Part shown: in pieces, positions 1 to 32,300 of the stretch
Layout of the letters: each line of letters opens with the position of its first letter
How positions within the stretch are numbered: the stretch's first letter is position 1
Source: Stramenopiles sp. TOSAG23-6
Taxonomy: Eukaryota > Sar
Direction of reading: 5' to 3'
NCBI GenBank assembly: GCA_900128565.1
Contig: LT635953.1
Location: 1-33,906, forward strand
Length of the DNA stretch: 33,906 nucleotides
The notes under the pieces: model-generated
What the model was told of the DNA's origin: nothing
Seen by the model: only the letters and a program-made list of their open reading frames with translations
Databases searched by the model: none
Program-made: the position numbers and the translations under genes

Positions 1-458
1 CATCTCTCTCGATCATTGCCCCAGTTACATATTGCTCCAATTTTGCCACCTTTTCCAGAAATGCTTCAAGAGTTTGCTTTATTCGGCACTAAAGGAGGTG
101 CAAATCATTTTGATTCTAAAATACGAACAATTCGTCCATTACCCATTAAATATCTTGCTTCCTCTGCAGAAGATCGTATGAACCAATTATTTGGTATTAA
201 AAAGAAATGGTCACTTGAAGAACTTCGACCTTTTATTAAAGATTTAACATGTACATTTTCATCATGAGTTTCAAATTGTTTTTTTTTCATAGAAAATTTT
301 GTACGTAACGAATTTTATAAAAAAAAAAAAAAATATTTTTTCACAATACACGTGGCGAAAATGATCTAACGGAGGGAAAACTTTTGTTGAAGTTTTGTCG
401 AAGTAGTACGTCAATTATTGACGGGAAAACAATTCGCTTATTTAATAAAAGATTTTGA
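1..458 (+). CDS. DSCC1: DCC1 (DSCC1) sister-chromatid cohesion protein, C-terminal part
   Basis: Partial gene, open at the left edge. Exons are 1-250 and 352-458, separated by introner 1. DCC1 joins CTF8 and CTF18 in the alternative RFC clamp loader, which acts on PCNA at replication forks and in cohesion. The visible part is the C-terminal winged-helix region: KKWSLEELRPFIKDL resembles the human stretch with RWTEEDITPYIQDL. After removal of the intron the frame reads IKDLTCGEND...LLLKFCRSS, close to human IQDLCGE...LLTKYSHSS, and ends at TGA 456-458. Without removal, translation stops soon after entering the intron. The family match is from remembered family sequence, not a search. The join fits far better than any GT-AG alternative, which shifts the frame. 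Confidence 0.8.
251..351 (+). mobile_element. Introner 1 (in DCC1), non-canonical intron
   Basis: 101 bp. It starts GTACATTTTC and ends CACAATACAC, and interrupts codon TGT after its first base (phase 1). The core at 288-309 is the most diverged copy (atagaaaattttgtac then GTAAC instead of CTAAC), preceded by a T run. GT is shared at the two junctions. No AG at the 3' end restores the frame; the nearest downstream AG (GGAG) shifts it. Confidence 0.8.
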
Positions 459-789
459 TTTTGTGTTTTCAATTTGAAAATGAAATAAAATTTACATTTT
501 TTTTACTTTTTGTTCAAAAAAATTATTCAATTTCAAATTTCAAATTTCAATAATAAGATCAAAAACAGGTTTGTCCAAATGTTCACAGAACGTTAAATAA
601 CGGTTACTATACCAGAACACACAGAAACTTTCCCTACACAAACGTAGTTAATAAATAAACCTCACAATGGCAGAATGTTCGTGACCCTCTACTCACATAG
701 TATTATCAACACTTCATTTATTTACATATTTATGACCTCTTTAGATTATTCCACTTTATATAAACGTTATCTCACATTTATTTTCAGAA
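459..789. other. Intergenic region DCC1-B9D2
   Basis: About 330 bp of AT-rich sequence with poly-A/T runs and a repeated TTTCAAA word at 530-548. I see no gene. ATTTTCAG at 780-787, directly before the B9D2 ATG, looks like a 3' splice site, so B9D2 may have a 5'-UTR intron ending here. No upstream exon giving an in-frame extension was found. Confidence 0.5.
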
Positions 790-1374
790 ATGATATACAA
801 CAAACTTACAGTGCACGTAACGGGGCAAATATCTGGTGGGTCTGACTTTGAAGCAAACAATGGTTTATATTTGAGGTGGAGACTTGTAGATGACCGTAGC
901 ATTACTGCAGTAGATAAAACAGAGGATGGTTGGCATTTGCTTCGTGGTTCAACATCAGGACAAACACAAGTGTCTACTCCCGACGACATAGATTCCTTTG
1001 CGCTGTGGCAACATCCAATTGATGTCCACTTCGCGTTGAGTTCCATAAGAGGCTGGCCTCGTTTGTACGTCGAAGTGTGGGCATTAGATGAATTTCGACG
1101 ACATGAATTAGCTGGGTATGGATTTGTACACGTTCCAACCGCAAGTGGTTGCTTTGACTTGGATATTGTCACTTGTGTACCGGAGTCAAAAGGTCCGATA
1201 GGACGTTTATCTGAAGATTTAGTTGGCGGTTTGCCAAAGTTAAAAGACCCCACAGTCTTACTTCGAAGTGGGAGTAGATTAGGTTTAAATACAAAAACGA
1301 CTGGTATTGTTCATGTTGAGTTGCAGTTACTTCACCGCGGATTCAATGGAACAAATATTAAATTTTCATCATAA
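790..1374 (+). CDS. B9D2: B9 domain-containing protein 2 (transition-zone MKS module)
   Basis: 194 aa, the usual size of B9D2 (human about 175 aa). B9D2 works with B9D1 and MKS1 in the ciliary transition zone, gating entry of membrane and soluble proteins. The sequence is one B9 (C2-like) domain. Family hallmarks are HVTGQISGGSDF near the N terminus, QTQVSTPDDIDSFALWQHPI, DVHFALSSIRGWPRLYVEVW and ELAGYGFVHVPTASGCFDLD; the tail has the beta strand GIVHVELQLLHRGF. It has no intron. The start is the first ATG of the frame and sits just after a possible 3' splice site. It implies the organism builds a cilium or flagellum. It is convergent with the next gene, with a 48 bp gap. Confidence 0.9.
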   Translation: MIYNKLTVHVTGQISGGSDFEANNGLYLRWRLVDDRSITAVDKTEDGWHLLRGSTSGQTQVSTPDDIDSFALWQHPIDVHFALSSIRGWPRLYVEVWALDEFRRHELAGYGFVHVPTASGCFDLDIVTCVPESKGPIGRLSEDLVGGLPKLKDPTVLLRSGSRLGLNTKTTGIVHVELQLLHRGFNGTNIKFSS

Positions 1375-1422
1375 AATTTGAAACTTTTTTAATTTTAATC
1401 ATAAATTTTTCGGAAATAATTT

Positions 1423-2367
1423 TTATCCAATATCAGTAGCATCAGAATCTGTAGACATCGACGTAGTAGTATTCCCAGAAAATTCAAGAAAGCGAGAATG
1501 AGATGGATTCTGCAAAATTGGTAAGTTTTGTAGTAAATCTCTGGCGTCTTCTATTTTTAAATGACTCAGTAAGTTTTCTATTTCAGATTGTATTTCACTG
1601 AGTTTCGTGTTTGTATTTGGTGAATACTTTGTAAGGGCAGCTATTGCTCGCCCTCCAGGAAAAAATTTAAAGAATGAAGATGATCTTCTTCGAGTTGGAG
1701 AAAACCTATGATGAGAGTTATGCTTAAAAGCAATGGTTGGAGTATCGCTTCCAGAAGGAGCTAGTTTCATATCTATAGAGGGAGAATTTTCCAGGCTATT
1801 CTGAGCTGGTGTTTCAGGTGTTGTTGGGATCATATTCTTTGTTATTTTCTGAGCAGCTTTATCACTTTGGAATTCTGAAATAAGATCTTGAAGTCGTTGT
1901 TTTTCTTCTTCAAGTTTCCTATTCTGTAATTTTTTTTCTATAAGTTCCTGTTTAGAAAAAATGTTCTCCTCTTCAACAACTTCTAAACGCTCCTGTAATC
2001 TAATCTCAGTTGACTTGGAAACACGTAAAGCAGTCTCCAGCTCATCATTTCTCTGTTCTAAATTTTGAACTTTATTCAAAGTAATTTTATATGAACTTTG
2101 GCATTCCTCCAATTTCCGCCGTACCCTAGATATATCAGTAACTAGTTTCGAAGCATCTAGCCGGGATGCGTGTAATAAATTCTCTAAACTAGCGATACGC
2201 TTCAATGACACTTGAGTTTTCTCCTCTGCTTTCGATAACAAAGTTTCTAGTTCATCCTCAACCTCCTTTGAAGTAGTCTCAAAATCTTCCCATTGTTCTT
2301 TTAAATTAACAAGTTCAGCTGTCTTTGCTTTTAACAAGCCTTGTAGTTTCAACAACTCACTTGACAT
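1423..2367 (-). CDS. NudE/NDEL1-like coiled-coil protein
   Basis: 314 aa from the first ATG (2367); the frame is open a few codons further upstream but without an ATG. Residues about 5-180 are one long coiled coil. It resembles the NudE family, which binds dynein and LIS1: the early segment EDFETTSKEVEDELETLL parallels human REFQEGSREYEAELETQL, and NLEQRNDELETALRVSKST parallels ELEQANDDLERAKRATIMS. The C-terminal 130 residues are low complexity, with an arginine/serine patch (SPTRRRSSS) and a possible short helix SEIQSEIENLLSHLKIEDA. NudE would fit the dynein light chain and docking-like proteins nearby. Generic coiled coils can mimic this pattern, so the family call is moderate. Confidence 0.55.
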   Translation of the reverse strand: MSSELLKLQGLLKAKTAELVNLKEQWEDFETTSKEVEDELETLLSKAEEKTQVSLKRIASLENLLHASRLDASKLVTDISRVRRKLEECQSSYKITLNKVQNLEQRNDELETALRVSKSTEIRLQERLEVVEEENIFSKQELIEKKLQNRKLEEEKQRLQDLISEFQSDKAAQKITKNMIPTTPETPAQNSLENSPSIDMKLAPSGSDTPTIAFKHNSHHRFSPTRRRSSSFFKFFPGGRAIAALTKYSPNTNTKLSEIQSEIENLLSHLKIEDARDLLQNLPILQNPSHSRFLEFSGNTTTSMSTDSDATDIG

Positions 2368-2864
2368 TTTGGAAGTACCAACCACAATATTATCAAAAAG
2401 AAGTCTTAAACAAAATTTCCATACGACGTTAGAATTTGAACAAGTTTTATTATACTATGACTAGAAAGTATACTAATTCAATAATAGTATGGATCTAGAT
2501 CCAAAAATACAAAAAGGAAGGTCTCACACGAGCGAGTGGCTGTGTGTGTGACAACAGACAGTGTGTGGTTTTGGAAGAAAGATGAGACACGCGCGTCTTT
2601 TTTCTCTTTTTTTTTGAATTTGAAATTATTGGAAATTTTTTTGATGGTCAGAATTTTGGAAAAAAAATCGATCATCAGCATCATGAACAACAACACACAC
2701 AAGCTCTTACACACTCTTGAATAAATTGCATTTGGTGAGATTAGTTTTGATTTACCTCGACCAAGATACAGATGGTGTCATTTTTCAATTGTAGAAGAGT
2801 TAGGTAAGTTCAGTGGAGGACCTTTAAAGCGATATTGCTATTGTTTCACTGTAGTTGGGAAAAC
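2368..2864. other. Divergent intergenic region with possible 5' exon of the glycosyltransferase gene
   Basis: About 500 bp between divergent genes. It has a TG/CA-rich stretch (2525-2570), T runs, and at 2740-2803 a less AT-rich segment open in one frame (FDLPRPRYRWCHFSIVEEL) that ends at a strong donor-like GTAAGT (2804). See the finding on the 5' end of the next gene. Confidence 0.4.
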
Positions 2865-4603
2865 ATGTCTTCTTTGTTTGTTATATTTTACGTGTACGTT
2901 TTACTTTTCAGTGGTTGGACAAATTCTTGGAAAGTTGCCTCCGAAGCCGAAAGAAGCTCTTTTTTAGCAGAATCTAATATTATGCAACGATTAAAAATTT
3001 GCGAAAGCGAAGGAATATATCCTATTTCATTGAGTATTCCAGCGGAATTTATTGTTTCTGAAGATCATGTTGACCTGGCATCTTTTTCTAGTCGCACACT
3101 ATTGTCAGAGATCTCACCAGTTGGATATGGAAAGATGATGGGTGATGCCAAAAGGTGGACTTTTTCGCCCACAAAAGAAGGAGAAACAGAATATCATTCA
3201 ACATACAGTAAATCTTTATTTGCTCTCACGATGAAGAAAGGTGGTTGGGACTGTTTATGTCTTCAAAATTGAATTCAAATTTATTTTGTTTGTACCAAAT
3301 TTCGTACCTAACGAATTTGAAATTTCAAGTTTTTGAATATTTTTTCACTCTACATTTACGCCACTATGAAATAATTGCAGCAGGCACAGTTCCTATATTC
3401 GTCGGTATTGAAGACGCCCCACCAGGTGTTTTATCTCTTGTACCTCGTGATTTATTTGTACGTGCTCGAAAGTTAACTTTATGGAATGATCAATCTAATT
3501 CTGGGTCACTTCCAATACTTGACTTTAGTGGCAATGATCAAAATTCAGAAACTCAAAAATACACTTCTGAATATTTAAATCTGCGAAAAGATTTTCTAAA
3601 AGTAGCACGACAAAAACTCACAACATTGTTTTCTGCTCAACGTTTACTGTCTATAATGGGATTTGATATCAATAATGAAAGTAAAAATAAAAAAATTTGC
3701 GCGGACAAACCACGAATAAATGAAAGTAAAAATAAAAAAATTTGCGCGGACAAACCACGAATACTATTTCTCACAGGTCGAGTTCAAGACCAGAATTATA
3801 TTCGGGAGCTCATGTACGTTTTCATTATGAATTTCAAATTTATTTTTTTTCATACGAAATTTCGTACCTAACAATTTGTTTTGACCAATTTCGAATGTCT
3901 ATTTTTTTTACAATACATATTTCATGGTTTGCGGAGCTTACTAGATGGAGAAAGTAGTCAAGATAAAATCAATCAAAATTCGTCGGAATCGCATACAAAT
4001 AATAGTGTACATGTCACTGATTTTCCAAAACTATCATTTATGTATGCTGAGTTAAACAGTGATGACTATTCGAAATCATCTGATAAAAGTTACGAATATG
4101 AAACAATTCATTTAAATAAAACTCGCGTGAAAAGACAAAGTCTATACGGATGGGGTTTTACTTACTCACATTTATTACCTGATTTGACAGTGAATAGATC
4201 TCCAAGGACTATTGAGAAGAATATTCGTAATATGGAGTATGATCTTGTAATCTATAGCCGCATGGATGGGATGTCATATAATCCGTTATCTCTCCGTATG
4301 TCGGATGGCACACTGTGGAGAGATGATAATAAAGGTGAGAAAGCAGCTGATGTTATGGGATATCCAGAAGATGTTGGGGAAAAACCATCGTGGGAGTATC
4401 CACCTTTTTGGCCCCTTGTACGGCAATATTATGCAGATCCATTTCCAAAAGGAGAGAAAAAAGTAGCATTTCTATTTGGAAGTGATTTATACGAACTTGA
4501 TGATGCAATGAAAATGGCTACACGATGGTCACAATTTGGCACAGTTTTTTTTCGCGAACTTGTTGATTGTCCAGAGGAAGTTCTCCAACGTTTCGAAAAA
4601 TAA
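2865..4603 (+). CDS. Exostosin/GT47-like glycosyltransferase
   Basis: Exons 2865-3254, 3356-3813 and 3919-4603, split by introners 2 and 3; 510 aa as modelled. It starts with a hydrophobic stretch (MSSLFVIFYVYVLLF) that could be a signal anchor for the Golgi, as expected for such enzymes. The best family mark spans the first junction: WDCLRHYEIIAAGTVPIF, the nucleotide-sugar-binding signature of exostosin-like (GT47-type) transferases, formed only when introner 2 is removed precisely. The C-terminal half (VIYSRMDGMSYNPL...FLFGSDLYELDDAMKMATRWS) I do not recognise in detail. Sugar and acceptor cannot be told. A perfect 45-bp in-frame duplication lies at 3674-3763. The 5' end is uncertain: a GT-AG intron at 2804-2911 with a start at ATG 2772 is also possible. 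Convergent with the next gene, 22 bp apart. Confidence 0.6.
3255..3355 (+). mobile_element. Introner 2 (first in glycosyltransferase gene)
   Basis: 101 bp, phase 0, placed by the YAT-end rule shared with the other copies. Core at 3291-3312 (tgtaccaaatttcgtac then CTAAC). The junctions share TTTA, so the exact cut can slide by four bases. This copy starts TTATGTCTTC rather than GTAYGT, so no 5' GT is available at the position that keeps WDCLRHYE intact. Confidence 0.85.
3674..3763 (+). repeat. Perfect 45-bp tandem duplication, in frame
   Basis: Units 3674-3718 and 3719-3763 are identical over 45 bp and encode NESKNKKICADKPRI twice in the glycosyltransferase. Perfect identity at third positions suggests a very recent duplication or an assembly artefact. 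Confidence 0.95.
3814..3918 (+). mobile_element. Introner 3 (second in glycosyltransferase gene)
   Basis: 105 bp, GTACGTTTTC to TACAATACAT, phase 2. Core at 3851-3872. The junctions share CAT. Removal gives RELIFHGLRSLLDG. A GT-AG alternative using a downstream GGAG would also stay in frame but would drop FHGLRS, so this copy alone does not decide between models. Confidence 0.8.
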
Positions 4604-4625
4604 TAAAATTACAAATATGGTTTAT

Positions 4626-6500: not shown

Positions 6501-6862
6501 GAAAATGAAAGTGCAGTATTTAAATTCCACGTTTATGAGTTTCTCCTAATGGGCATTATTGTGGATATCCCTGTAATTATTCCTCGAATGCAACTTCACT
6601 TAGCTACTAGTAGCATTGTTGCTCAAAAAAGGGATCAGATCACGATTTAGATTCGACCGTTTCATAACCGTTAATTAATTTCCCCTCCTAGGACTACAAG
6701 TATTGCGTTATACGGTATTCGTATTCACACACGTCCTAGTGTGTTACCATTCAACAACGAATCGAAACCGTGCTATTAAGGACTAGTTATATGAGTATTC
6801 TACACAAGTAGTTTTGAACACGTGTAATAGTTCTTTATTAATAGAAACTAGCCGGAAGATAG
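6501..6862. promoter_or_regulatory. Shared divergent promoter region with CACGTG and X-box-like site
   Basis: 362 bp between two divergent coiled-coil genes. It holds CACGTG at 6819-6824, an inverted pair ACACAC...GTGTGT around 6726-6745, and GTTACC-ATTC-AACAAC at 6743-6758, which resembles an RFX X-box (GYNRCC, short spacer, RRNRAC) but with a spacer one base longer than usual. I see no gene. Function is inferred from position only. Confidence 0.3.
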
Positions 6863-9145
6863 ATGCGGAAAGTCCCCACAAAAAGAGATTCAATTGCAGA
6901 TAAGCAAGCAAGACTGCACACAAAGCGCGAAAAAGATAGAATAGACAAAATGCAATTCAGTAGAACTCTAAAGAAAGTGAAAATGCCGCAATTCGATGCA
7001 CCCAGAATATCAAGGAAATCAATACAGACTCATGATATAACTAATGCTAGTTTGAAAAGAGCGACACAAAAATCTAAGCAGGGATCAATAAAAATTCTTC
7101 GAAAGAAGAAAAGGCTTACTTCTCGGGTAGAGAGACCATTAAAAAAAATGGAGAAAAATAAACACAACAATTCCCATTTATTGTGGTCAGAATTTATGGA
7201 TTATGGCACGCGCAATTTGTTCTACATTCACAACAATACTGGGGAATCGAGCTGGGAAGCACCCAAAGGCTGGTATCGGACAAAGTCAAATTGTTCACTT
7301 ATTCCTTTGGATGATCTTAAGGATAAAAATTTTCCTATTAAAAATTGTACGTCAGCAAGAAATAGAGTTAAACCAAAGAAAAAACCAATATTGGTAACTA
7401 TTTCACCAAATAGAAAGAAAACCATGCGGCGATTTTATCCTGTGATATCAAAACCCACAAGAAAATCTTCGAACAGAAATGTTCACAATAGGGCTAAGAC
7501 ACATGGGAAGCAATCAACAGTAGGAACTTATAGAAAATATCGCTCACAAATTGTCTCCTACAGTAATGATCAGGGTCAGACTATCAAAGAATTTAATGGC
7601 CCGTCGAAGTCATTTTCTCAGATAAAAGCGTCAAAAGAAAAGGTGGCAAAATTGGAGCAATATGTAACTGGGGCAATGATCGAGAGAGATGAAGTAAAAA
7701 ACAATCTCAATAAAGTGAGTTTACTTTCTGCTGCACACTCTCAAGAGCTTGAAGATATTCGTAAGCCAAATTCAAAACATAATTTGTCACCCAATGCGAA
7801 TAATAGAAATAAGTTTGCAATAACAAAATCACTAGGGCATCAGAATGAATATATGCTTACTTTACTTAGTAAATCGGAGGCCACTAAAGATGATTTGAAG
7901 ACCAACATAAATATACTTCGCCGAGAAGCAAACATTTATAAATCTGCACAAGCACGGCTTAGAGATGGAGTTAATGTAAGTAAGTCAAGAGTTGCCGAGA
8001 GTAATATGAGAACAAATGAGTACTATAGATCCATAAAAGACGCGACAGATACATACCTTGAACAAAAATCACATTATATAGCTGAATGTAAAAATGTTCA
8101 AGACAAGCTATTAAAACTTCAACAACAAGCAAATAAGCTTACATTTCAAAACTCAGATGACATGGAAAATCTTAAAAACTGGGACAGTATTTCTGAAAGT
8201 TTTCAATCTGAAGTCTCAAAGAAATTTCTCGATGAAAATGTAGATAGATCAAAAAAAAAAGATTCAGAGCATAAATTCCACAAGCCACTGAGTAGCCGCA
8301 ACAAGATGCAGCATATTGCCCAATCGGAGTCATATTACAATAAACAGTGGACTGAACTATCTGCATTAACAGATGTTCAAAATATTAGTGATTTTGTGAA
8401 CATATGTATTAAATTTGAAAAAGAAAAGAAACGCAAGTTAGATAGAGTAAGCATTTATCTTGAAAACACACAGAAGATTAGACAACAACAACAAAGAATA
8501 AAGAACGAAATCATAAATATAAAATCTCGAATAACAGCAATTACAAATAATGGTAGTAAACAAGAAAGCTTAAGGGCATTTATGTCAGCCAAAGCATTCC
8601 AAGATAAAGCAGAGCAAGACGAAAAGAACATTTTGAAGAAAGAAAAGATTGTAGTTGATGCGATAATGAATGCAACTCAGTCACTATATCAATTATTGAG
8701 CAGTTCGCAAGTCTACCTTCACACAGATGTTGAGAGTATATCTGATTCTGTTGAAATTGTATCTACAAATACAAATGTAAAATCAAGAGTGAAATTATTA
8801 TTGAAAAACTTTTGTGTAATTGAAAGTATATTGAATCATATCCTAGAACCTTATATAATTTTCGAGGAGAACCAGGGTTGTATACCAAATAGAGCAAACT
8901 TTAATGTTGATGCCGAACGGAAAAAGCTTAACTCAATATTTTCAGACGTATTTAAGAAAGAAGATTGCTGGGTATCTAAAGTGTCTAAAATAATTGCTTC
9001 GAAAAGGGTTGCAAGTTTTGATACTGCTTCAAAAAACTCAAAAAGTAAACATTTAAGAACGAAAATAGAGGATACAACTTTACCAATTTTACACCATGAA
9101 GAGTTGTTACAATCAATGATAGGACGAAAACAGTATCTTCTGTAA
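6863..9145 (+). CDS. WW-domain coiled-coil protein, possibly axonemal
   Basis: 760 aa, no intron. Very basic N terminus (1-100). One WW domain at about 105-137: W108, the FYIHN core, ESSW with W131, and P134. WW domains bind proline-rich peptides. From about 250 to 640 it is coiled coil. At about 493-525, QWTELSALTDVQNISDFVNICIKF... recalls the same short motif that interrupts the coiled coil of docking-complex proteins and of the divergent neighbour. Role in the axoneme is inference from that resemblance and from the head-to-head pairing. It ends 20 bp from the convergent Tctex1-like gene, another possible axonemal dynein component. Confidence 0.5.
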   Translation: MRKVPTKRDSIADKQARLHTKREKDRIDKMQFSRTLKKVKMPQFDAPRISRKSIQTHDITNASLKRATQKSKQGSIKILRKKKRLTSRVERPLKKMEKNKHNNSHLLWSEFMDYGTRNLFYIHNNTGESSWEAPKGWYRTKSNCSLIPLDDLKDKNFPIKNCTSARNRVKPKKKPILVTISPNRKKTMRRFYPVISKPTRKSSNRNVHNRAKTHGKQSTVGTYRKYRSQIVSYSNDQGQTIKEFNGPSKSFSQIKASKEKVAKLEQYVTGAMIERDEVKNNLNKVSLLSAAHSQELEDIRKPNSKHNLSPNANNRNKFAITKSLGHQNEYMLTLLSKSEATKDDLKTNINILRREANIYKSAQARLRDGVNVSKSRVAESNMRTNEYYRSIKDATDTYLEQKSHYIAECKNVQDKLLKLQQQANKLTFQNSDDMENLKNWDSISESFQSEVSKKFLDENVDRSKKKDSEHKFHKPLSSRNKMQHIAQSESYYNKQWTELSALTDVQNISDFVNICIKFEKEKKRKLDRVSIYLENTQKIRQQQQRIKNEIINIKSRITAITNNGSKQESLRAFMSAKAFQDKAEQDEKNILKKEKIVVDAIMNATQSLYQLLSSSQVYLHTDVESISDSVEIVSTNTNVKSRVKLLLKNFCVIESILNHILEPYIIFEENQGCIPNRANFNVDAERKKLNSIFSDVFKKEDCWVSKVSKIIASKRVASFDTASKNSKSKHLRTKIEDTTLPILHHEELLQSMIGRKQYLL

Positions 9146-9165
9146 GTCAGGATAAATTAGATTTA

Positions 9166-9666
9166 TTAAGATTTTAATGCTACACCATGAACAAAAGTAT
9201 AACAAGCCAAGGAACCATTGGGCGAATGCCATTTCACTACAAAACTACCATCAGCAGCACCACCTAGAACAGAAGTTGAAGAATGAAACGCCGTATTCGC
9301 ATTTTCAATAATATTACTACTTACGAACAATTTAAATGGTTTCTGAAGAGCTTGCAACGCTTTTAGACAAGTAATACTAACCTTCTCAGTCAGCTCTTGG
9401 ACTGTTGATCTATGGAACTCCATATCGCGAAGTTCGGCTTTTAAAGTATCAGATACAACTGATTTAAAGAGCTCTTTGCACTGCGCAAAACCACTCACTT
9501 GTTGATTCATTGGAAATAACGATAGAAACTTGAGCAGCTCCTTGAACAAATTACTAAACAAATACACAGAATTTGATATATAGTGGACGTATTGAAACAC
9601 AGACCAGTTTTGAAACTTTTTTGAAGCGACCTGCGAGTCAAAAGAGTCAACGTCATCATGATTCAT
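9166..9666 (-). CDS. Tctex1-type dynein light chain-like protein
   Basis: 166 aa from the first ATG (9666). The C-terminal 110 residues fit the Tctex1 (DYNLT) fold: a helical stretch (ELTEKVSITCLKALQAL) followed by beta strands FKLFVSSNIIEN, AFHSSTSVLG, the turn ADGSFVVKW and CYTFVHGVAL. Human DYNLT ends with the comparable DGSCTVRW and a final hydrophobic strand. Tctex1 dimers sit on dynein intermediate chains of cytoplasmic or axonemal dynein. The N-terminal 50 residues have no match that I recognise. Divergent from the next gene with 208 bp between them. Confidence 0.65.
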   Translation of the reverse strand: MNHDDVDSFDSQVASKKFQNWSVFQYVHYISNSVYLFSNLFKELLKFLSLFPMNQQVSGFAQCKELFKSVVSDTLKAELRDMEFHRSTVQELTEKVSITCLKALQALQKPFKLFVSSNIIENANTAFHSSTSVLGGAADGSFVVKWHSPNGSLACYTFVHGVALKS

Positions 9667-9874
9667 CAACGAAAAGTCAAGTCAAAAAGCCGGCCAACAA
9701 CGGCCAACCCAAAAACGGCCAATTTCAACGCGAACGATCTCACTCGTCCACGGGTAGTAAAAGTCCTGTATTCTATTCGTGCCGCATTTTACAACTCTAT
9801 AATATTATCATTGTTTCCCTAATATTCTCTGTGGGAGGATATTAGTACTACGTTAACCTGTGCATATAATCACT

Positions 9875-10402: not shown

Positions 10403-10468
10403 AATTTGATATTGCTTTTATTATAATACCCAAACAATTTGATATTTCCTTTATTATAATACCCAAAT
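10403..10468. repeat. 33-bp tandem repeat in convergent 3' region
   Basis: Units 10403-10435 and 10436-10468 (AATTTGATATT...TTATTATAATACCCAAA) differ at three positions. They fill most of the 82 bp between the stops of two convergent genes and may duplicate the 3'-end processing signals. Confidence 0.85.
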
Positions 10469-10484
10469 TAAATATATATAATAG

Positions 10485-11858: not shown

Positions 11859-12087
11859 TTTATGTACTCTATGCTGATAATTTGCAAAACTAATCTCGTT
11901 TTGTTTGCAGAACTATTCTTCACACTTGGCACTACTGGCACTGACTCTTAGACATGATACCCGGTACCTCAATTGATTTTTTCGATTTTTTCTGACCATC
12001 GACCACTCGTATACTCGTCGACCTTTGACACTCTTGTCTTGAGATTCATTCTCTCGACTCTGTTATTTGATCCACAAACAATATACA

Positions 12088-15186: not shown

Positions 15187-15741
15187 CTTAATTGGCAACA
15201 AATGCAACAACAGGAATTTGTAGAAGAAGTAAATGTTTCTCTTGTAACTGGAGAATTAGAAAATAATTATAATCATGAAACTTGTACTAACATTAATGAT
15301 ACGCAAGAAATTAATGCATCTACTGGTTGGAATGACGTTGTGACATTAGGTGGATGGGATGCTGCTCTACAATCAGAATGTGACGTGAATCAGAATATAT
15401 CTATTCCACCAAAGCCACATTCTAAAACCAAACTCAATGGAAAACAAAATGGAAAACAAAATGGAAAACAAAATTTTAAACAAAATTTTAAACAAAATGG
15501 AAAACAAAATGGAAAACAAAAACAAACAGGAAAACATTCTGCAAAACAACAGCCGCGGAATGCTTCTCAAAACGTATCCAAACAACGTGGTGCATCTCGA
15601 CGCGGAAATAGATCTTATGGGCGTGGAAAAGGTAAAGGTGATAATCGGCAAGGTGGAGAAAATGGTCAGTTGAATCACAAATTTCAAAAGAAAAACACCA
15701 ATAAGCGAACTTCATCACCTAAGAAGTCAACTAATGTATAG
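14188..15741 (+). CDS. Basic polyQ protein with RG-rich tail, possibly caprin-like RNA-binding
   Basis: 517 aa, no intron. Lysine-rich N terminus (1-55). Helical region about 85-240, where KKLQRIVDLEKSKAQGKELDAAQ recalls the caprin-1 homology segment (KKLRNLEKKK...N.GE.LN.DQ). Then a charged coiled coil with runs of E/K, a 15-residue polyglutamine encoded only by CAA (15142-15186), the motif TGWNDVVTLGGWDAA, seven NGKQ/NFKQ repeats, and an arginine/glycine-rich end (RGASRRGNRSYGRGKGKGDNR) typical of RNA-binding, granule-forming proteins. Caprin kinship is weak; the RNA-related role rests mostly on the tail. The pure CAA tract is likely length-variable. Confidence 0.5.
15142..15186 (+). repeat. 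Pure (CAA)15 polyglutamine tract
   Basis: Fifteen uninterrupted CAA codons with no CAG. This suggests replication slippage rather than selection on codon use. Confidence 0.95.
15436..15519 (+). repeat. Seven 12-bp units encoding NGKQ/NFKQ
   Basis: AATGGAAAACAA three times, AATTTTAAACAA twice, then AATGGAAAACAA twice. The two variants occur in blocks, as expected from unequal exchange or slippage. Confidence 0.95.
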
Positions 15742-16258: not shown

Positions 16259-19200
16259 ATGCCGTGTCAGACTACTTTGAATCATCAAAAAGGTGAAGAA
16301 ATTATATTCCCGTTTCCTTTCCCACCCTATGATATCCAGAAATCGCTGATGTCTAGTATATTTAAAAGACTTCAAACCGGTGGTGTTGGTATCTTTGAGA
16401 GTCCGACGGGTACAGGGAAGAGTTTAAGTATAATCAATAGCGCACTACTTTGGCTTAAATGTTACGCACCTCCAAACTATGACGTTCTTGCGGGAAATAG
16501 GAAATTTGAGCAAAATGGAAAAGCTATTGCAAAAGTTCCAGCTGTAGCTTCGTCTTTCAATTCGTCTGACGATGAAGAACCAGATTGGGCTACTCAATAT
16601 GAGTCCGCAGCAGTGAGATCTCTGCGAGAGCGTCATGAATTTGCAGAAAAACGATGGCAGGCTCGAATCTTGGCACTACTTCAAAATGCAGAAGGCTCCG
16701 ACAACTTAAACCGTAAACGTGGCCGTTGGTCTAGAGGCCACCACAAGGGTTCACGAGCAAGCACAAAATCTAAATTATCTAAAAAAGTACTTTCTGACAA
16801 CAAACAAGAGAATTCAACGATATGCGATGATGAAAATGACGATGAATTTCTTGTGGATGCATATGATAGCGATGATGGCGTTAAAGAGGCATGGTGTACC
16901 AGCAGTAGTAGTAGTGATGCGGATGGTTTTAATTCTGATGATGACGACACACCTCTTAGTGTTCGGAAAGTAATTTACTGTACTCGAACACATTCTCAGC
17001 TCTCACAGTTCATGAGTGAAGTTAGAGAAACGACATTTGGAAATCCCGTTGGTAAATCTCGTACAAAAGAAACATCATCGATGATAGAACATTCCGGTAC
17101 CAAAAGGAAACTCTCTTCTACTGATAGTTCTATTGAGCCATTATATGTGAGATGTATGTTTTATTTTTTTTAATTTATATTTGTTTTTCGTACGAAATTT
17201 TGTACCTAACGAATTTTATTTGAAATTTTTTTTGAAATATTTTTCCAAAATATATGTATTGCATTAGGATCTAGAAAGAATCTTTGTATAAACGAAAGTG
17301 TTAAAAAACGGGGAGGGACAAGCATAAACGAATCGTGTCTCGAAATGCAAAGAAATGCAAAATCCATTAGTAAAACATCTGATAAGAATATAAAGAAGGG
17401 AAGTTGTCCTCATTTTGATAAAGGTCCACAAAAATTGTTTGGAGACCATGCGACTGTCAAAGTTCGTGATATTGAAGATTTAGCAGCACTTGGTAAGAAT
17501 ATGGGATCTTGTCCATATTACGGAGCTCGAAAAGCTGTACCTTTAGCAGAATTGGTCACAGTTCCTTATAATATGATTCTTCATAGTGGAACACGAAATC
17601 GATTACAGTTGCCATTGAAGGGAAATATTGTAATATTTGACGAAGCACATAATATTATTGATGCAATTAATAATGCTTACAGTTGTTATGTAACTCATGA
17701 AATTCTAATTGCAGCTCATAGAGAACTTTCACAGTATCTTCAACGATATAAAAGTCGACTGAAAGGTCGAAATATTATTTTTATCAATCAATTATTATAC
17801 GTTTTACGGTCCATTGCCAAATTCATTGACAAGTCTAAAATATCTCCAATTTCAAATGTGAATGGGAAAAGTGTCAATGAAACATCCAATAATAATGTGT
17901 TTTCTCTTAGTGAGTTTGTAACAAAAGCTGGTATTGATCATATAAATATGTTCAAACTTGATAAATATATTGAACGTAGTAAAATAGGACGTAAAGTTCA
18001 AGGTTTTACAGAAAAGTATGTGAAACCTTTTGAAGTAGAGTCTGATGATAACCATAACCCTAATATCCAAACGCAAAAGAAATCTTCAGGCTCAGCACTA
18101 ATGCAGGTCAGGGAATTTCTCATGGCACTTACAACAGCAAATGGTGACGCAAGAGTTCTTATTACAATTGGAAGTGTAAAGATTGTAATGCTCAATGCCT
18201 CAGTACATTTCAGAGAAATTGTAAATGAAGCCCATGTACGTTTTTCAAATTGAATTTTGAGTTTTTTTTTTCATACGAAATTTTGTACCTAACAAGTTTT
18301 TGAAAAAAAAAATTGAAATATTTTTATACAATATATGCGGTGCTTCTTTTGGGCGGTACCATGCAGCCAATTCAAGATATCGTGAATCAATTATTTTGGC
18401 ATGTAGAATCTGATAAAATTACTACACTTTCTTGTAATCATGTTGTTCCTGATTCAAATATAATAGCTCTAACTGTTGATAAAGGACCTATGGGGAAATC
18501 TCTTAAGTTTACTTATAAAATACGAGAGCAAGTAGAGACACAAATTGAACTTGGCCGTCTGATTGCGAACTTATGTATATGTATGTTTTATTTTTTTTCA
18601 AATTCTAAATTTTTTTTCGTACGAAATTTTGTACCTAACAAATTTTAGGTTTTTTTTTTGAAATATTTTTCCAAAATTCATTAGTTCCTGGTGGAGTTGT
18701 CGTATTTTTACCATCTTTTCAATATTCAAAAACACTTCAAACAACATGGAACAAATCTGGTGGTATATTAAATAGAATTGCAAAAAAAAAGAAAATATTT
18801 TGGGAACCACGTAATGCTATTGATGTGGAATCCACATTATTGGATTATTCATTCGCTATAAAGAAATATAATATTTCAGAAAAGTGTAATCAAAATATAT
18901 CGCCCTTGGGCACTCAAAATCAGAATACTCAACAAGAAAAACAAAATAAAAATCTTACTGGTGCAATATTATTCAGTATTGTTGGTGCTAAAATGTCTGA
19001 AGGAATTGATTTTAAGGATGACTTGGCAAGATGTGTAATTATGGTAGGTTTACCTTTTCCGCCTCCTAATAGTCCTGAACTGAGAGAAAGGATGATCTGG
19101 TTAGATGAACAATCTAATAAAAGGACAATGGAGTTACAGCCACAAGATTCAAGAATTTGCTCAAAAGATATAAAAAATAANAACAAAAATAGCGCTGGTC

Positions 19201-19998: not shown

Positions 19999-20074
19999 CT
20001 TGTAGAAAAACTAATAATATTTCTACAGTAGTGTTTTAGTATAGGTTGGTACTGGTAAGTTCAGTAGACTTTGG

Positions 20075-20102: not shown

Positions 20103-20291
20103 GCATCGGCATGCATGATTTTTTTGATTTTTTTGAATGACATCAGCAAATAACTCACGACGGACTCACGACCAAAAAAACTGAAAGAATTAATAATATT
20201 TTTAGAGTTTACTAAACTTGTTTCAACAAGAAGATTCTGGAAAAAGACTACAATCCCTATAATCACTACAGTGTAATATCAGACGCGGAAG

Positions 20292-22670: not shown

Positions 22671-22712
22671 TTTATTATTAAAGAATGTTTTTATCATCAC
22701 ATTAAATGTCTT

Positions 22713-25700: not shown

Positions 25701-28700
25701 TAAGAGAGCGTCGAGAAACTGTGAAAAGTTTAGGACACGCTCGTTCTTTTTTTTGTATTTAGCAAAGATAATATCGCACTTAGTAGCAGTTATTTTTGAT
25801 TTATCCAAAAGATTATGTGCTTGTGATATCATCTTTTTAAAAGAAGAATTGTCTATGGTTAATTGCTTTGAGGCTCCCTGCTCCTTTGCGAAGTTACAAA
25901 ATATACCGCCAAAGCCCCACACACCCAAAACTTCAGGGCNTATCCCCTTTTTCTTTTTTATACGTATAGTTCGTAGAGTAAGAACGTATTTCCAGTACTT
26001 TCTCGTATGAGCATATTCGGCACGCCCACACCACCCGACATCCTCAAGCCGACGCATTGAATCTCTCAAGTTTGAAGCCAATATACGTCCGTGATATCCA
26101 CGGACCATCGATTGAATTTTTGCCACAACACCCTGGTATCTTCTCATCCTATCTAATAGTGCTCGAAATTTTTTACGTTGCATTGATCCTTTCAAATATC
26201 TTTGAAGAACTATCGCCATTTTCTTCTTTCTTGCAGAGTTCCACTTGAGAAAGCGCCGCTGTATTTTCGAAGCAGCCGGTCCATATCTTTTCATCAGAAC
26301 TCTCTTTTTCATTAGATGTCCACGTATCCTACTCTGTACGAGAATGACAGCATTCATTCTTTTCTCTATTTTTGACTTAATTCTTGCTTTTTGCATTAGA
26401 TGGATTTTACACTTTACTTTTTTTCGACCAAGCTTCCCACGATAGCATTTTTGAACTAAAATTGCTGCTTTCTCAAGCTTTCGAGCTTTGTTAAATATAC
26501 CTAGTTTTACTGCCCGTCTTAGCTTGTGCTTGTTTTTCTTCAGAGCTTGCATATCAACGACAGTTTTAAACCTACCTCCAAAATACGATAGCTCTTGTAA
26601 GTCAGCCTCTCCTGCTTGTTTTTTTTTCTGTCTTCGTTGAGCGGTAATACGAATCTTTGACCAATATAAATCTTCCCGAATTTTTTTGCAAGCCTGCACC
26701 TGTAGAATCCGCCGCAAGTGATACTGAACTTTTTTCTTTGCAAGGAAACGTCTTCTTTCTTTGAATGTTCCAGTGATGTATCGCTGTACTCTCAGCGCCA
26801 TCTTGAATTTTCTAGCTTTTATTAAATTTCGAAGCTGCTTATATCGTTCTATACCACGCCACCATTCTTTAATATAATTAGCTGCCCCGTGTTTTCGAAA
26901 TAAAAGAAGACGTTCTGCCCGTTCCCTCTCACGTTGAACCTTGGCTCGTCGCATACGCCGCAAAGTCAAAAGAAGCTTAACATGCTTCCTATCTCTAAAA
27001 GCTCGAAAAATTCGCTGTGCATGAACTGCAAGACGTATTTTTGCTTCCTTCAGTATTTTTAGGAAAAACATCAATGCTTTTGAGTGGTGTATCCGGTAGT
27101 GCTGCTGCACTTTCTTACAGCTTTCTACCAACAGTTTGAATTTTTTTGTACTCTTTCTTGATTCGTAACCACGATAGAGTCTTTGTAAGTGAATCGTTCC
27201 TTGAATACGACGGAGAACTCTTTCACGAGAATCTTTCTGTGCTTCCCGTTCCTGATTCCGAATTCTACCCAACTTGTCCTGGATATCCTTCCAACCCCAA
27301 TATATCCTATAACGCCTTTGAATAATTGTTGCGTATTTTATTCGACTTGCTAAAATTTGTCGCTGTATTTCTTCTCTCCACCTATGCAAACCGAGCTCAA
27401 GGTATTTTATGATCATGTTGTTTAAAGATTTCTTAATCATGTTAACGAAACGTTTCATTCGGAACCCATAGACTTCATCGTTCATTGCTTTTGCGACTAA
27501 ATTCCGTGGTAACCTTTGCAACATCGCAGACATCATTCTCGTGCTTTGATATTTCATTTCATTTACTTGCAACCGTGATTCTTCGGCACTATGCTTCAAA
27601 ATATTGTGTCTTTGTTTTGTTGGAGGATCAATTGCCTGAGGAGTTTGTATTAAATTTGTACTTGTTAAACCAGTAGCTGATTTCAGGCAATGTGCTGACA
27701 GACCATGTAACACAAAACCTGGTTTTTTGACAGAGGTTGAATGCAGAGCTATTGGAGTCTTTTCTATATTTATAACTTTCGGATCTGTTTCTTGTTCTAC
27801 ATTTTCTGTTTCAGAAAACCCCTCATTATTTTCTGAATGTAAACAAATGTCTTTATTATTTTCTCTATCAAGTATGTTGTTCTCATGAATTTGTATATCT
27901 TTGCTTTTTGAANTTGAAGTCCTCACAACATCTTGATGTCTTGATATTTTCGTTTTTGTAGAATCTTTTTGTGAAACTTGTGGTTTTGTAAAATCTTTTT
28001 GTGAAACTTGTGGCAATGGTGTTGTTCCAATATAAGACGTTGGAAATTTATGTTTCCTAGCGAGTGTTTCATGTTGTTTCTTTCGAAGTTCATGAAATGG
28101 ATCCAAATGATCACTTTTCGTAAATTGTTTTTCAATCTGTTTAATTGCTTGCCTTACGGCAAAGTTGGGCGCAGGAATTTTATCTAGTTCTTTTGCCATA
28201 TGAGGTGAAATTGCACTGAGTATTGGTAATTTCGGTGGTGGTGTATATTCTATTGGTTTTTCATCTTTATTTAGGGATGATTTATATCCAGGTATAATAC
28301 CTCGTTTCTGTAAAATGTATTTTCTGTGTTGCTGTGCTGTTCTTTGTAAATGATATAATTTAACCTGAAAGTTTGTATCATTTTGCATTCGTTTGTATCG
28401 TATATTTTGCTCTAACGCCTTCGCTTCATCCTCAAGTTCTTTCGGTCGAGATAAAAACTCTTCAATTGTTAGTTGTGATTTCCTATCAGATAAATGCATC
28501 GGTTGTAGTGAATATTCCTCACGTCTATCTAATAACCCTAATCCTACAGTTGGATTACTTGTGACAGATTTTGATATTTTACGTCTAATTGTACTACTTC
28601 GTGGCTTATTTGCCACTGAGCGAACTGAAGATAAGGGGGGGACTACAAAGCTCCCACCTGGTCCAAATGAACCGTCTTCGGCATATCCCGATCCAATTAT

Positions 28701-29042
28701 ATCACCTATATTGTACGAACCAATACTTACTAAACTATTCATAGGACCAAGTTGGTCCTTTTTTTGATTCTCAGTCAGTCTCTCTTGACGATAACGCTTT
28801 CGACGGCGTCTTTTGATTTTAGATTCAGATATTTGGTTCTTTTTTGTGTAAGGAGATATACCAAACTGACTAGATATAATGTTACGTGAAACCTTTAGGG
28901 AGGAAGCGTTACCAGTTTCAATTTGCGATAGTAAGTCTTGAATGTCAGTCATATCCTGACCAACTGGCTCGTCATTGAAGTGATCTATAGGAGTAGAACT
29001 TTTCCGACGAGCACCTACTCTAAAGAATTTTTTGTCAGACAT
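22713..29042 (-). CDS. Giant IQ-repeat / p25-alpha / WW / B-box protein
   Basis: 2109 aa in one exon. Order: disordered N terminus (1-530); a long array of IQ calmodulin-binding motifs (about 540-990, for example ATIIQRRYRIYWGWKD and AVILVQSRIRGHLMKKR); a p25-alpha/TPPP-like segment (about 1065-1120, ITATKCDIIFAKYKKK and VLNFSQFLDALLDIANLKYP); WW domain 1 (about 1258-1287, YYFNKRTNEKSW); tandem B-box-like zinc fingers (about 1320-1460, with repeated CxxC, CxxCH and Cys/His pairs); another IQ (about 1495); WW domain 2 (about 1832-1862, YYFCGASGETSW); an acidic/serine low-complexity region; and a C-terminal motif DPSDGTAYTEEEFRSVYG. It is probably a microtubule- or cilium-associated scaffold regulated by Ca2+/calmodulin (inference). 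Unresolved bases at 25940 and 27913 give two unknown residues. The frame is intact throughout. Confidence 0.8.
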   Translation of the reverse strand: MSDKKFFRVGARRKSSTPIDHFNDEPVGQDMTDIQDLLSQIETGNASSLKVSRNIISSQFGISPYTKKNQISESKIKRRRRKRYRQERLTENQKKDQLGPMNSLVSIGSYNIGDIIGSGYAEDGSFGPGGSFVVPPLSSVRSVANKPRSSTIRRKISKSVTSNPTVGLGLLDRREEYSLQPMHLSDRKSQLTIEEFLSRPKELEDEAKALEQNIRYKRMQNDTNFQVKLYHLQRTAQQHRKYILQKRGIIPGYKSSLNKDEKPIEYTPPPKLPILSAISPHMAKELDKIPAPNFAVRQAIKQIEKQFTKSDHLDPFHELRKKQHETLARKHKFPTSYIGTTPLPQVSQKDFTKPQVSQKDSTKTKISRHQDVVRTSXSKSKDIQIHENNILDRENNKDICLHSENNEGFSETENVEQETDPKVINIEKTPIALHSTSVKKPGFVLHGLSAHCLKSATGLTSTNLIQTPQAIDPPTKQRHNILKHSAEESRLQVNEMKYQSTRMMSAMLQRLPRNLVAKAMNDEVYGFRMKRFVNMIKKSLNNMIIKYLELGLHRWREEIQRQILASRIKYATIIQRRYRIYWGWKDIQDKLGRIRNQEREAQKDSRERVLRRIQGTIHLQRLYRGYESRKSTKKFKLLVESCKKVQQHYRIHHSKALMFFLKILKEAKIRLAVHAQRIFRAFRDRKHVKLLLTLRRMRRAKVQRERERAERLLLFRKHGAANYIKEWWRGIERYKQLRNLIKARKFKMALRVQRYITGTFKERRRFLAKKKVQYHLRRILQVQACKKIREDLYWSKIRITAQRRQKKKQAGEADLQELSYFGGRFKTVVDMQALKKNKHKLRRAVKLGIFNKARKLEKAAILVQKCYRGKLGRKKVKCKIHLMQKARIKSKIEKRMNAVILVQSRIRGHLMKKRVLMKRYGPAASKIQRRFLKWNSARKKKMAIVLQRYLKGSMQRKKFRALLDRMRRYQGVVAKIQSMVRGYHGRILASNLRDSMRRLEDVGWCGRAEYAHTRKYWKYVLTLRTIRIKKKKGIXPEVLGVWGFGGIFCNFAKEQGASKQLTIDNSSFKKMISQAHNLLDKSKITATKCDIIFAKYKKKNERVLNFSQFLDALLDIANLKYPAATNFNELRAQHRIGKLIPNTRTPGRLGGIFNPLTPGEIRLILVIHNHLLYSNGVVFNKSARKKLESKVTDDLTWAQRVCAASWRRYKGKELMALSRIAKEAWLEAKRKGGWVIRIQLMVRRYQAKARRWAVINDIFVKFMDPETKEPYYFNKRTNEKSWHRPACLRDGYWDYDANDQAYWVEAEDLDNIFTLPTPEREFVVLCSQCEEERVEVVCRECETQFCSACYDDTHCSGKRKKHTKLPVDICGECGYQVATRHCLACKLAHRKTPKKAKLCDNCFENIHMKKSHSWTPIVATCVECEDYAVKWWCIECDEPYCTICFEKVHSHGQRMLHNAKPEPLLLVDIWNKKIQEERARIEAEQLAERDALRAQFQLMAMHQSATKFQALYRGKMIRRAGRERMRQQRLWERAESIKVRQEQDRQKLTSTRFKNIGRSAASIIMEDKFSEELPGTVTLVRDKRTLHTTVDITDLLKENDRILIVGRKFTVKRARRKSKKKKRRNAIVNKKTDAAILMDSLKSPAQRLIDKIRLEQQQKESIETVLQIMLVEKWDGFGNFATVPSKNVKLDSQGNCTRVKGVKCYKLPKHSKVALFAARLADGVREKGIDIGGVLKGPPGSESTMTKIRESETAEALSKLWGVAKDTDAYKNAMDTKAARISSNLVSAATSLQAQDLANAVSFLGRAIRGKEDVRATVGGFVKKIKDTNSIMLWNSLHDKKTGRTYYFCGASGETSWKMPEGDIRIVPFEKPKKKRAAVLSSDTDSDSDVPLAKKFKRLLRRKKRKVKDTKQISKSSSSDDEDSDDDSDDDNEKNDEGGVVKVIEKKKVSSFKNILKKKVKERPPPPPIPEGGFDDSDKNKESDSDNSDDDENINEAGVDADEKKDDTGINQINYAEQDQDYPQNSILDDMTSLEALNDEFGYETDEGGYNTDGDHFDNDAYQSDDNQPLYYVEKRIDPSDGTAYTEEEFRSVYGENSAEWNNAKIWET
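27954..28013 (-). repeat. 30-bp in-frame tandem duplication
   Basis: Units 27954-27983 and 27984-28013 differ at one base and encode PQVSQKD(F/S)TK twice in the giant protein. Confidence 0.95.
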
Positions 29043-29353
29043 ATCTAAATCTTTATTCTGGCATTTTCAGTGATTCCTTGGCCATGTGGCCGAAAACATG
29101 GCGTGGTGCTGATCAATCTTTCAATTTGTTTGTATGGGGGGGTACCAAGCATATTAGTAGTAGTGTCTCTCTCATGTCAGTTACATACAATTGTTGACTA
29201 CTAGTAGCAGCTGAATTTTAAAGATTTCGTGTAATCGCGCTGAGAGTCAGTTTAATTTTCACTCGAGGTTGAAGGAAGGAGTGCTACAAAGTACTTAGTT
29301 GTATATATCAGAGGCGCCCTCACATATAATATCGAGGTGCTCTTCCAGGGGCC
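29043..29353. other. Divergent promoter region of giant gene and Pol I gene
   Basis: 311 bp with a G7 run near 29138 and several CTAGTAG/TAGTAG words (29155-29210). No gene seen. The Pol I ATG at 29354 has a strong Kozak-like context (GGGGCCATGGC). Confidence 0.4.
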
Positions 29354-32300
29354 ATGGCTACCGTTGGCTCTTTACAGAAGAGTACACCCAGTTCTATACC
29401 TGGTGCATATCCTCTAAATGCTTCTGAACATTTGAAGGAGCTAGTATCCCCTCATATAGAATCGTTCAACTATGTGATTCATGATGGTCTTGAAGCAGCT
29501 ATTAATAGCCTTGCAACTTATCCAACTGTTATTACAATGGATAATGCAAAGCAAAAGAAGAAGAAATCAAACATAAATACAAAGAAACACAATACCCGAG
29601 CAGATTCGTCTAGCTCTTCAGGATCATCTAGTTCTGATGATAGTGATTCGGAGTCTTCAGAGGAAGAACGTGACGGAGATGTTCTCCAGTTGTGGATTGA
29701 AGACGCTGAGATTGGCTACCCCACTAGGTCAGATGATTCCCTTGACTCTCGATGTTTTCCAGCAGAATGTAGACAACTTGGTACAACGTATGATGCGCCA
29801 CTTTGGTTGACTATTTGTCGACGTGTTAATAATGGTACAGTTATTCGTATGCAACAAAAAGTTGGAGATATTCCAATCATGGTTCGTTCTGACCGTTGTC
29901 ACCTGAATGGTTTGTCTCCAAAAGAACTTGTACGTCGTCATGAGGATGCGGATGAATTTGGTGGATATTTTGTATGTAATGGTATCGAACGTTGTATCCG
30001 TATGTTACAAATCCCACGGAGAAATATGGTACAATCTCTTGATCGTCCGTCTTTTGCAAATCGTGGTCCGAAGTATTCCTCTAAAGCAACTTCAATTCGA
30101 TCTGTGACTGCAGATCAATCTGGTACTACTGTAACTTGTCACTACCAAACTGATGGTAATGTTATGGTTAGATTTCTTGTGCGTAAACAAGAGTTTTTTG
30201 TTCCAGTAATTCTTTTAATGCGAGCACTAAAAGAAGTAACTGATCGTGAGATTTACGATCGTCTCGTTGGTACGGGGAATAATTCATCAACTGATAAGGT
30301 AAATAAGAGTTCTTCATTTGTTGCTGATCATGTAGAAGTTATTCTTAGAGATGGGCGTACATATGGTGATATGTATTCTCGTACACAGTGTTTAGCTTAC
30401 CTTGGTGCTCGATTCCGTGTTTTGTTGCAACAAGGACTATCGTGTGAATTAATGTCTGATGCACAGGTTGGCCGTGCTTTGTTGCATCGTCATATTTTTG
30501 TGCATCTTAGTCAGTCATCTAAGATTGTGAACGATAATGCGGATAGTGCAAAGTTTAGTCTTTTGTTATTTATGCTTCGCAAACTTTTCTCTTTTGTTGA
30601 AGGTACGAGTGTCGCTGATAATTCTGATGCTCTTTCATCACACGAAATCCTCACTTCTGGTCATTTGTACATTAAAATTCTTAAAGAAAAAATCGAAGAC
30701 TTCATGCTTAATGTAAAACAATTTATTCTTGCTGATCTACGCCGTGATAGCTCTCGTGTGTCATTCAACAGTGAAACATACATTAAACGATCGTTAGACC
30801 GCCAAAAAGATTTAGGTAAAGAATTATACTATTTTCTTGCTACTGGTAATTTGAGATCTACGTCAGGTCTTGATCTGATGCAGAATTCCGGATTTACTAT
30901 TATAGCAGAGAAATTGAATTGGTTGCGGTATATTGCTCATTTTCGATCAGTACGTTTTATTTTTTTTCAATTTTTTTATCTAATTTTTTTTCGTACGACA
31001 TTTCGTACCTAACAAATTTTAGTTTTTTTTTTGAAATATTTTTCCAAAATACATGTACATCGAGGTAGATTTTTTGCGGAAATGAAAACAACAACGGTAC
31101 GTAAACTGTTGCCGGAATCGTGGGGATTTTTATGCTGTGTTCATACTCCTGATGGTTCCCCATGTGGACTTCTTAGTCATTTATGTGCCGCTGCAAGGTA
31201 AGTTTTTTTGAACGAAACAAATTCTTTCTTTTTTGTTTTTCTTTCTTTGTTTTCTGTAACATTCTATTGTTTTTTGTATAACTAGTGAAATGATTACAAA
31301 TTATTGACATTTTTGTCAATGTGCCGCTCCAGACTTAAAGAAGCTTCAACGGGCGTCTTGTAGACAGCAGGCAAGCACCCCACCATTTTCTTGCCGGATG
31401 ATCACTATAATACAATCAATCAATTAGAATTTTCAATCAATATATTTTAATTATCAATGTCACAATCAATATCACAACCAACTCATTGTATACATTTTGT
31501 TTTATTAATTATACACAATAGAATTGTTCCACAAGCTCAGGATACTTCCAGACTTCCAAGTGTATTGGTTGCATTAGGAATGATTCCAGATGTTGAAGAT
31601 ACGAGATTGCTTCTACCTCGTTCTCAATCTGTTGATGGTGAAGGCAAGGGATATCTTCCAGTATTGCTTGATGGGCGCGTCATTGGTGCTGTTGCCGTTG
31701 GACGTGCAACTAAAATGGTGTCTGAATTACGTAGAATTAAAGTAACAGAGTTAGCATCTCGTGTAGCTGCTGGCAAGTGTAACAGTAGTTACCTTACACC
31801 AGTTTCAGAATGCTCAGATGTGAAATTAATCGGTAAAAATCGAGGCGTTCCTGTGGATCTAGAATGTGCATTAGTACTACCAATGTCTGCTGAAGGAGGT
31901 GGACCATTTCCTGGACTATATCTTGCAGCTGAAGCTGCCCGATTGGTTCGTCCAGTTCACCATCTTGGTGCAAATGCTCCCGAGTGGATAGGTACATTTG
32001 AGCAGATGTTTATGTCAATTGGTTGTCAGGATGCAGAAGCTGAAGACGCTACTCATCGTGAAATCGATCCTATGAATATTCTCTCTGTAGTTGCTAGTCT
32101 AACACCTTTTTCGGATATGAACCAAAGTCCGCGTAATATGTACCAGTGTCAGATGGGTAAACAAACAATGGGGACACCATGTCACAATTGGATTAATCGT
32201 CGTGATAATAAAATGTATCGCATTCAACATGCACAAGCGCCTATTGTTCAAAATAAAGCACAGGTTCACTATCGTATTGATGACCACAGTAATGGATGTA

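Follow-up and report, generated by a model that had tools for sequence, protein, structure and literature searches.

Seven related elements interrupt four genes

We analysed a stretch of 33,906 bases (36% G+C; hereafter the window) from the stramenopile assembly GCA_900128565.1 (positions 1 to 33,906 of contig LT635953.1). It carries the contig label C3 within a partial genome of 8.03 Mb in 408 contigs; other C-numbers below denote contigs of the same 8.03 Mb, and L-numbers (e.g. L040) denote fetched loci. Seven short elements, all on the plus strand, interrupt four genes of the window at the positions reported by a first-pass annotation, which had read them as one family of mobile introns. 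Copy 1 (251..351) lies in a DCC1-like gene, reads GTACAT...AATACAC, follows the dinucleotide AT (249-250) and ends in AC. Copies 2 (3255..3355) and 3 (3814..3918) share a glycosyltransferase-like gene: copy 2 (TTATGT...TACAT) has no GT at its 5′ end, follows GT and ends in AT, and copy 3 (GTACGT...AATACAT) has AT both upstream and at its end. A CHL1-like helicase gene holds copies 4 (17154..17255, GTATGT...AATATAT), 5 (18236..18336, GTACGT...AATATAT) and 6 (18581..18681, GTATGT...AATTCAT), each with AT before it and AT as its last two bases. Copy 7 (30950..31054, GTACGT...AATACAT), in the Pol I RPA2 gene, follows CA and ends in AT. A branch-point-like GTACCTAAC lies at 31005..31013 (plus strand) in copy 7 and recurs at 3304, 3864, 17202, 18285 and 18631; copy 1 carries the branch-point-like GTACGTAAC at 301.

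The seven copies do form one family. A profile built from 65 copies, the seven window copies most likely among them, matched these seven places in the window and no others (E 4.9e-11 to 6.1e-16; 1.2e-13 for copy 1 and 1.3e-13 for copy 3), and a repeat search put all seven in one group, sharing 68 nt with a single reference copy at 63-85% identity. As a control, the profile had no match in the reversed window and C1 sequences. The name exostosin, given earlier to the gene with copies 2 and 3, did not hold up: its only Pfam match is sub-threshold (RXYLT1_C, E 0.014).

The family is large

The family is real and large. A pattern search of the 8.03 Mb for its 16-base core, AAATTTYGTACCTAAC, gave 844 forward and 751 reverse exact matches (1,595, duplicated contigs included), so that the further copies expected outside the window do exist, and the reversed pattern gave 0 matches over the same 8.03 Mb. 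This search overcounts sites because some contigs are duplicated (C2, C4 and C13/C14 are palindromic or near-duplicate, as judged by match positions), and it undercounts copies because the exact core is present in just 61 of 98 copies. In 30 kb of contig C1 the 65-copy profile marked a further 11 places, including a partial antisense copy; extrapolating from these 18 places in 63.9 kb, we estimate roughly 2,000 copies in the 8.03 Mb. The elements are 86-124 bp long. As is typical of introners, many similar, whole-length copies occupy unrelated gene positions (1,595 core matches, 111 collected copies).

The 111 collected copies are non-redundant and nearly full-length; 108 were testable for reading frame and 98 were used for end statistics. 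At least one of the 13 copies outside the 98 (L021:2813) restores the frame with a boundary from an earlier rule. Twenty loci were chosen because GT precedes the element and most others were fetched for carrying it, so the base counts below are no random sample. Within a subfamily with the interior ATATGAATTTCTAATTT (L045, L080, L082, L088, L094), copies at different sites pair at 94-98% identity, which suggests a recent spread of this subfamily. Viral relatives were looked for in IMG/VR and rejected: 30 stretches had an exact 16-base match, none held a full element, and the best profile score of 15 bits was attributed to chance.

Two arrangements on contig C1 stand apart. At L040 7482-7679 (C1:17482-17679), two copies lie head to tail with zero exon between them, as if one had inserted at the end of the other to give a twin intron, and at L040 4529-4614 a partial antisense copy lies inside an open reading frame and is apparently read as protein.

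One cut restores the reading frame

The cut was placed before GTAYGT and two bases past the terminal AATAC (GTAYGT...AATACNN), and the frame was followed over 75 nt on each side. At this cut the frame was open in 100 of the 108 testable copies, compared with 36 and 33 when one or two more bases were removed. An earlier, overlapping set with 90-nt flanks gave 74, 24 and 20 open frames out of 85 for the same three cuts, and the 20 GT-preceded loci, which are also within the 111, gave 20, 3 and 3. With the element retained the frame was open in 10/98 copies, the antisense of the joined flanks was open in 19/98, and element lengths modulo 3 were even (31/34/33 in 98 copies). These counts show that the sense strand and the exact boundary, not the length, restore the frame. 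The copy boundaries coincide, in sense, with the inferred intron boundaries, as those of introners do, and the intron phases are 36/32/28 among the 96 copies with a single open frame. In the window, removal between GTAYGT (TTATGT in copy 2) and YAT, as first proposed, leaves the frame open in 7/7 copies; the proposed end fits copies 2-7, which end in AT, but not copy 1, which ends CAC.

Homologous proteins fix several junctions

At copy 7, the motif [FY]R[SCAMG][VI]HRG is found in 108 of the 120 listed Pol I homologues (S 83, C 19, A 3, M 2, G 1); the other 12 fall outside the motif as written, and P0002 alone of these was looked at singly. Under the AT-end cut the exons join as TCA|GTACATCG, and the reconstructed Pol I protein (1256 amino acids) reads FRS|VHRG, gap-free there in a 77% match to P0001. 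In the copy 2 gene the junction falls after D-C of [WF]-D-C-[LMC]-R-H-Y-E, a motif found in 117/120 homologues; the join is therefore forced to TGT|TTA, with neither GT nor AG at the intron ends. Cut at the AT end, helicase copies 5 and 6 align to FANCJ and XPD without a gap, and at copy 6 an alternative GT-AG end three bases on (TTAG) would cost the protein one residue. Copy 4 is gap-free against XPD only, four residues from the alignment edge. For copy 1 the Pfam match of DCC1 stops short of the junction and the one alignment that spans it is weak, at E 0.03, and has a gap of two residues immediately past it; for copy 3 the frame is the only support of the boundary. The earlier statement that conserved protein fixes the exit of copies 1, 2, 4, 5 and 7 stands for 2, 5 and 7 and extends to copy 6, with copy 4 near an edge and copy 1 weak.

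Genes outside the window gave the same picture. MCM5 (contig C80) is gap-free against MCM5 chains over two junctions, and three more diverged members in this gene, which end ACAT, ACAT and AAAT, restore GGAM|VLAD|GGVVCIDEF and LNSRV|SVLAAANP by reading. ClpB is gap-free in the three alignments shown. The ATP synthase beta subunit is gap-free across its junction against P0241 and P0242, with W-D-K|F-D-Q-Q in P0241, a protein from either a transcript or a genome. As far as frame and protein conservation can tell, these elements are thereby shown to exit at AT or another non-AG dinucleotide.

The inferred 3′ end is not AG

Almost every spliceosomal intron has AG as its last dinucleotide. Among the 98 copies the last dinucleotide was AT in 73, GT in 13, CT, TT and AC in 3 each, AA in 2 and GC in 1, and the canonical AG was found in 0/98; without the 20 GT-chosen loci, AT accounted for 62/78 and AG again for 0. 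Sliding the cut without changing the product allowed any AG end in 1/98 copies, and GT-AG or GC-AG in 0/98. AG ends for the family were therefore rejected. In the upstream exons, AG counts by frame were 70, 77 and 73, with no excess. With the frame restored in 100/108 copies and an AG end in 0/98, the first-pass view of a family of mobile introns that exit without a 3′ AG is supported.

A probable two-base duplication at the target

The dinucleotide before the element tends to match the last one removed. Identity at position -2 beat all shuffles (0/2000) and that at -1 was reached by 40/2000, with no excess over shuffles at -3 and 0; identity at offset +3 was reached by 123/2000 shuffles (58/2000 without the GT-chosen loci). 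Among the 25 copies that end in something other than AT, 16 have the same dinucleotide upstream. Genome-wide, the upstream/last pairs were AT/AT 476, AT/GT 3, GT/AT 37 and GT/GT 23, with an odds ratio near 99 (duplicated contigs included). AT/GT pairs are far rarer than GT/AT pairs, which fits AT as a preferred but not required 3′ end, and exonic upstream A-to-G changes could be a further source of GT/AT pairs. We take this as statistical evidence that the matching dinucleotides represent a 2-bp target-site duplication at mostly AT targets, as in many introner families; the AT ends found at targets other than AT qualify this. From such a duplication it would follow that the 3′ splice dinucleotide is target-derived and mostly AT. 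We read the mobile unit as GTAYGT...AATAC and the last two bases of the intron as the second copy of the target. When the two dinucleotides are not the same at a conserved residue, it is the upstream copy that belongs to the exon (S not Y in Pol I, C not Y in the copy 2 gene, V not M in MCM5); in ClpB the upstream dinucleotide gives V, and I would be a mild substitution as well.

The odds are about even that the terminal dinucleotide of this large intron class is a duplicated target and no fixed signal, with the 3′ cut falling two bases past a conserved TAC. A transposon would then have released part of the host's splicing from the need for AG, and the preference for AT would be secondary.

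Splicing signals and the proposed mechanism

The 5′ ends of the 98 copies are GT in 88, AT in 5, GA in 2, GC in 2 and TT in 1. G at +5 (92/98) and T at +6 (95/98) give the U1-like GT context of canonical U2-type introns, and CTAAC is present in 84/98 copies, 32-56 nt before the end. The sense orientation, the 5′ splice-site and branch-point-like motifs and the coding constraint point to removal by splicing. The Pol I gene also has an ordinary GT-AG intron (31198-31521, joining AAAR|IVP), so AG splicing has not been lost in this genome. This intron ends CACAATAG, which resembles the family's end CACAATACAT; another possible GT-AG intron in the window is the candidate 2804-2911.

We propose, with a probability of about 0.77, that the family consists of introners with a non-AG 3′ end and a target duplication, removed from RNA by the host's major spliceosome, in a marine stramenopile (MAST), probably MAST-3. 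A copy, equipped with the U2-type 5′ splice site GTAYGT and in most cases with a branch-point-like CTAAC, would insert into coding DNA, mostly at AT, and duplicate two target bases. The upstream dinucleotide would stay exonic, and GTAYGT...AATAC plus the downstream dinucleotide would be removed. The ordinary major spliceosome of the host would presumably cut the RNA at the element terminus, accepting non-AG ends alongside GT-AG introns.

Several results do not sit easily with this proposal and should be counted against it. At the chosen cut, the frame is not restored in 8/108 copies. For Pol I, MCM5, ClpB and the copy 2 gene the target is not AT yet the 3′ end is, unlike a simple, unmutated duplication; in such cases AT was either acquired as the intron end evolved or carried in by some of the insertions. 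TACAG ends number 14 across the genome, and at least two of them (on C74 and C133) do not belong to the element; TACAT ends number 476 after AT and 37 after GT. Searches of the partial 8.03 Mb for U2 small nuclear RNA and U2AF1 gave no hit, a result of little weight, the U2 controls being likewise silent. To these are added a mild, unexplained excess of in-frame AG over ±36 nt (92 vs 68 and 69 in the other frames) and the public Pol I model P0002 (EukProt GSMAST32.ASY1.ANO1.1206.1, 988 amino acids), both of which would suit ordinary GT-AG introns.

Alternative explanations

If the elements were such ordinary introns, the true 3′ AG would lie a few codons off and the conserved residues would have been over-interpreted. 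P0002 agrees with the reconstructed Pol I at 980/988 residues and implies a GT-AG intron at copy 7 (30954-31064 by reading), and its source may be a paper that used metatranscript alignments among other evidence; moreover, the third diverged MCM5 member (near L004 2622-2718) permits GT-AG with one extra residue. Yet P0002 drops residues of the HRG motif kept in 108/120 homologues and has 268 gap positions against the 1256-residue reconstruction. Within ±12 nt, 21/98 copies have an AG in frame, and 19 and 20 have one in each of the other two frames; the nearest AG from the element end onwards is in frame in 39/98 copies and in the other two frames in 29 and 30. We consider this explanation very unlikely.

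Removal from RNA might instead be non-spliceosomal and set by the element's own ends, for which euglenid non-conventional introns and remnants of group II/III introns are models. The non-GT 5′ ends of 10/98 copies and the variable 3′ dinucleotide would agree with this, and the ends of group II introns resemble GUAYG...AU. Group II/III introns have a conserved domain V/VI structure; here RNAalifold found no shared fold in 96 copies, no domain-specific search being made, and a shared RNA structure was rejected as the excision signal. Single folds of six window copies gave z from 0.5 to -3.5, with just two below -2, perfect terminal pairing spans 0-6 bp in 98 copies (perfect repeats only), and elements of about 100 nt are small for a set of group II domains. 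Together with the strong 5′ splice-site and CTAAC motifs, these results make non-spliceosomal removal unlikely. Precise excision at the DNA level, in the style of the internal eliminated sequences of ciliates, would be expected to leave the 2-bp duplication and the exact restoration seen here, but the copies lie in sense in open frames (100/108, against 19/98 for antisense), and the single antisense copy looked at, that of L040 4529-4614, is partial and stays in its open frame; we regard such excision as barely plausible.

Relation to known introns

U12-type introns include borders such as AT-AC, and the CCTAAC found here resembles their branch site. As a set the 98 copies do not follow the U12 5′ consensus [AG]TATCCTT: positions +5 and +6 are GT and not CC (G in 92/98, T in 95/98), and the branch-like motif lies at the 32-56 nt from the end given above.

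The first-pass annotation had compared the family to introners of Amoebophrya-type dinoflagellates. The comparison is apt in that non-canonical introners are known there, but the present host is likely a MAST stramenopile. According to Farhat et al. 2021 (PMC7789003), introners of Amoebophrya A25/A120 have highly variable borders and, in a subset, 8-20 nt inverted repeats and direct repeats. They too are introns of a marine protist that are short, repeated and apparently mobile and whose borders are non-canonical, whereas here GTAYGT...AATAC plus two bases is fixed. Our 98 copies gave no perfect inverted repeat of 8-20 nt at their ends: perfect repeats, the only kind tested, reach at most 6 bp. 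As far as the accessible sections of Gozashti et al. 2022 (PMC9860276) go, a survey of transposon-derived introners started from annotated introns and gives splice sites as GY/AG; our elements resemble these in being sense-oriented repeated introns with a duplication tied to the splice borders and differ in their non-AG 3′ end. The tunicate Fritillaria, as described in PMC7789003, has many introns outside GT-AG with AG-A(N) patterns dominant; the two genomes are alike in that non-GT-AG introns are numerous, but here the introns retain GT at the 5′ end and the 3′ AG is missing from a single sequence family. Non-canonical introners are thus already known, and what is apparently new is a large family with a non-AG, apparently target-derived 3′ end.

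Host lineage and meaning for gene models

The host is probably a MAST stramenopile of MAST-3, because a near-identical Pol I protein, P0002, carries the GSMAST32 name. It is this name, together with the single-cell assemblies of MAST-3A and MAST-3F described by Seeleuthner et al. (PMC5778133), that suggests MAST-3. No report of non-canonical introns in MAST-3 was found in the literature searched, whose scope left out bioRxiv and most subscription papers; the main texts of PMC8163842 and PMC12614181 do not contain the word "intron", and PMC5778133 uses it twice, both times in the methods. Because the elements appear to be removed at an AT end, standard gene-finding rules misread the genes of this organism, and at least one public gene model of this uncultured marine lineage, that of Pol I (P0002), is wrong. 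A large, uniform class of introns with GT at the start, a motif like a branch point inside and AT at the end would offer a natural system in which to test the 3′ splice-site rule; it would also be an example of a transposon that sets a non-canonical splice site through a 2-bp duplication.

Other features

A perfect 55-nt inverted repeat (window 1-55 and 7637-7691) lies at the contig end and looks like an amplification or assembly artefact, as do the mirrored matches on contigs C2, C4, C37 and C58. The gene of copies 2 and 3 (window 3245-4603) has protein-search relatives named from a Chlorella virus and from Parachlamydiales/Chlamydiales bacteria, and it contains a perfect 45-bp tandem duplication (3674-3763). 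About eight 12-nt repeats (AAACAAAATGGA-like) lie at 15418-15551 within a plus-strand open reading frame.

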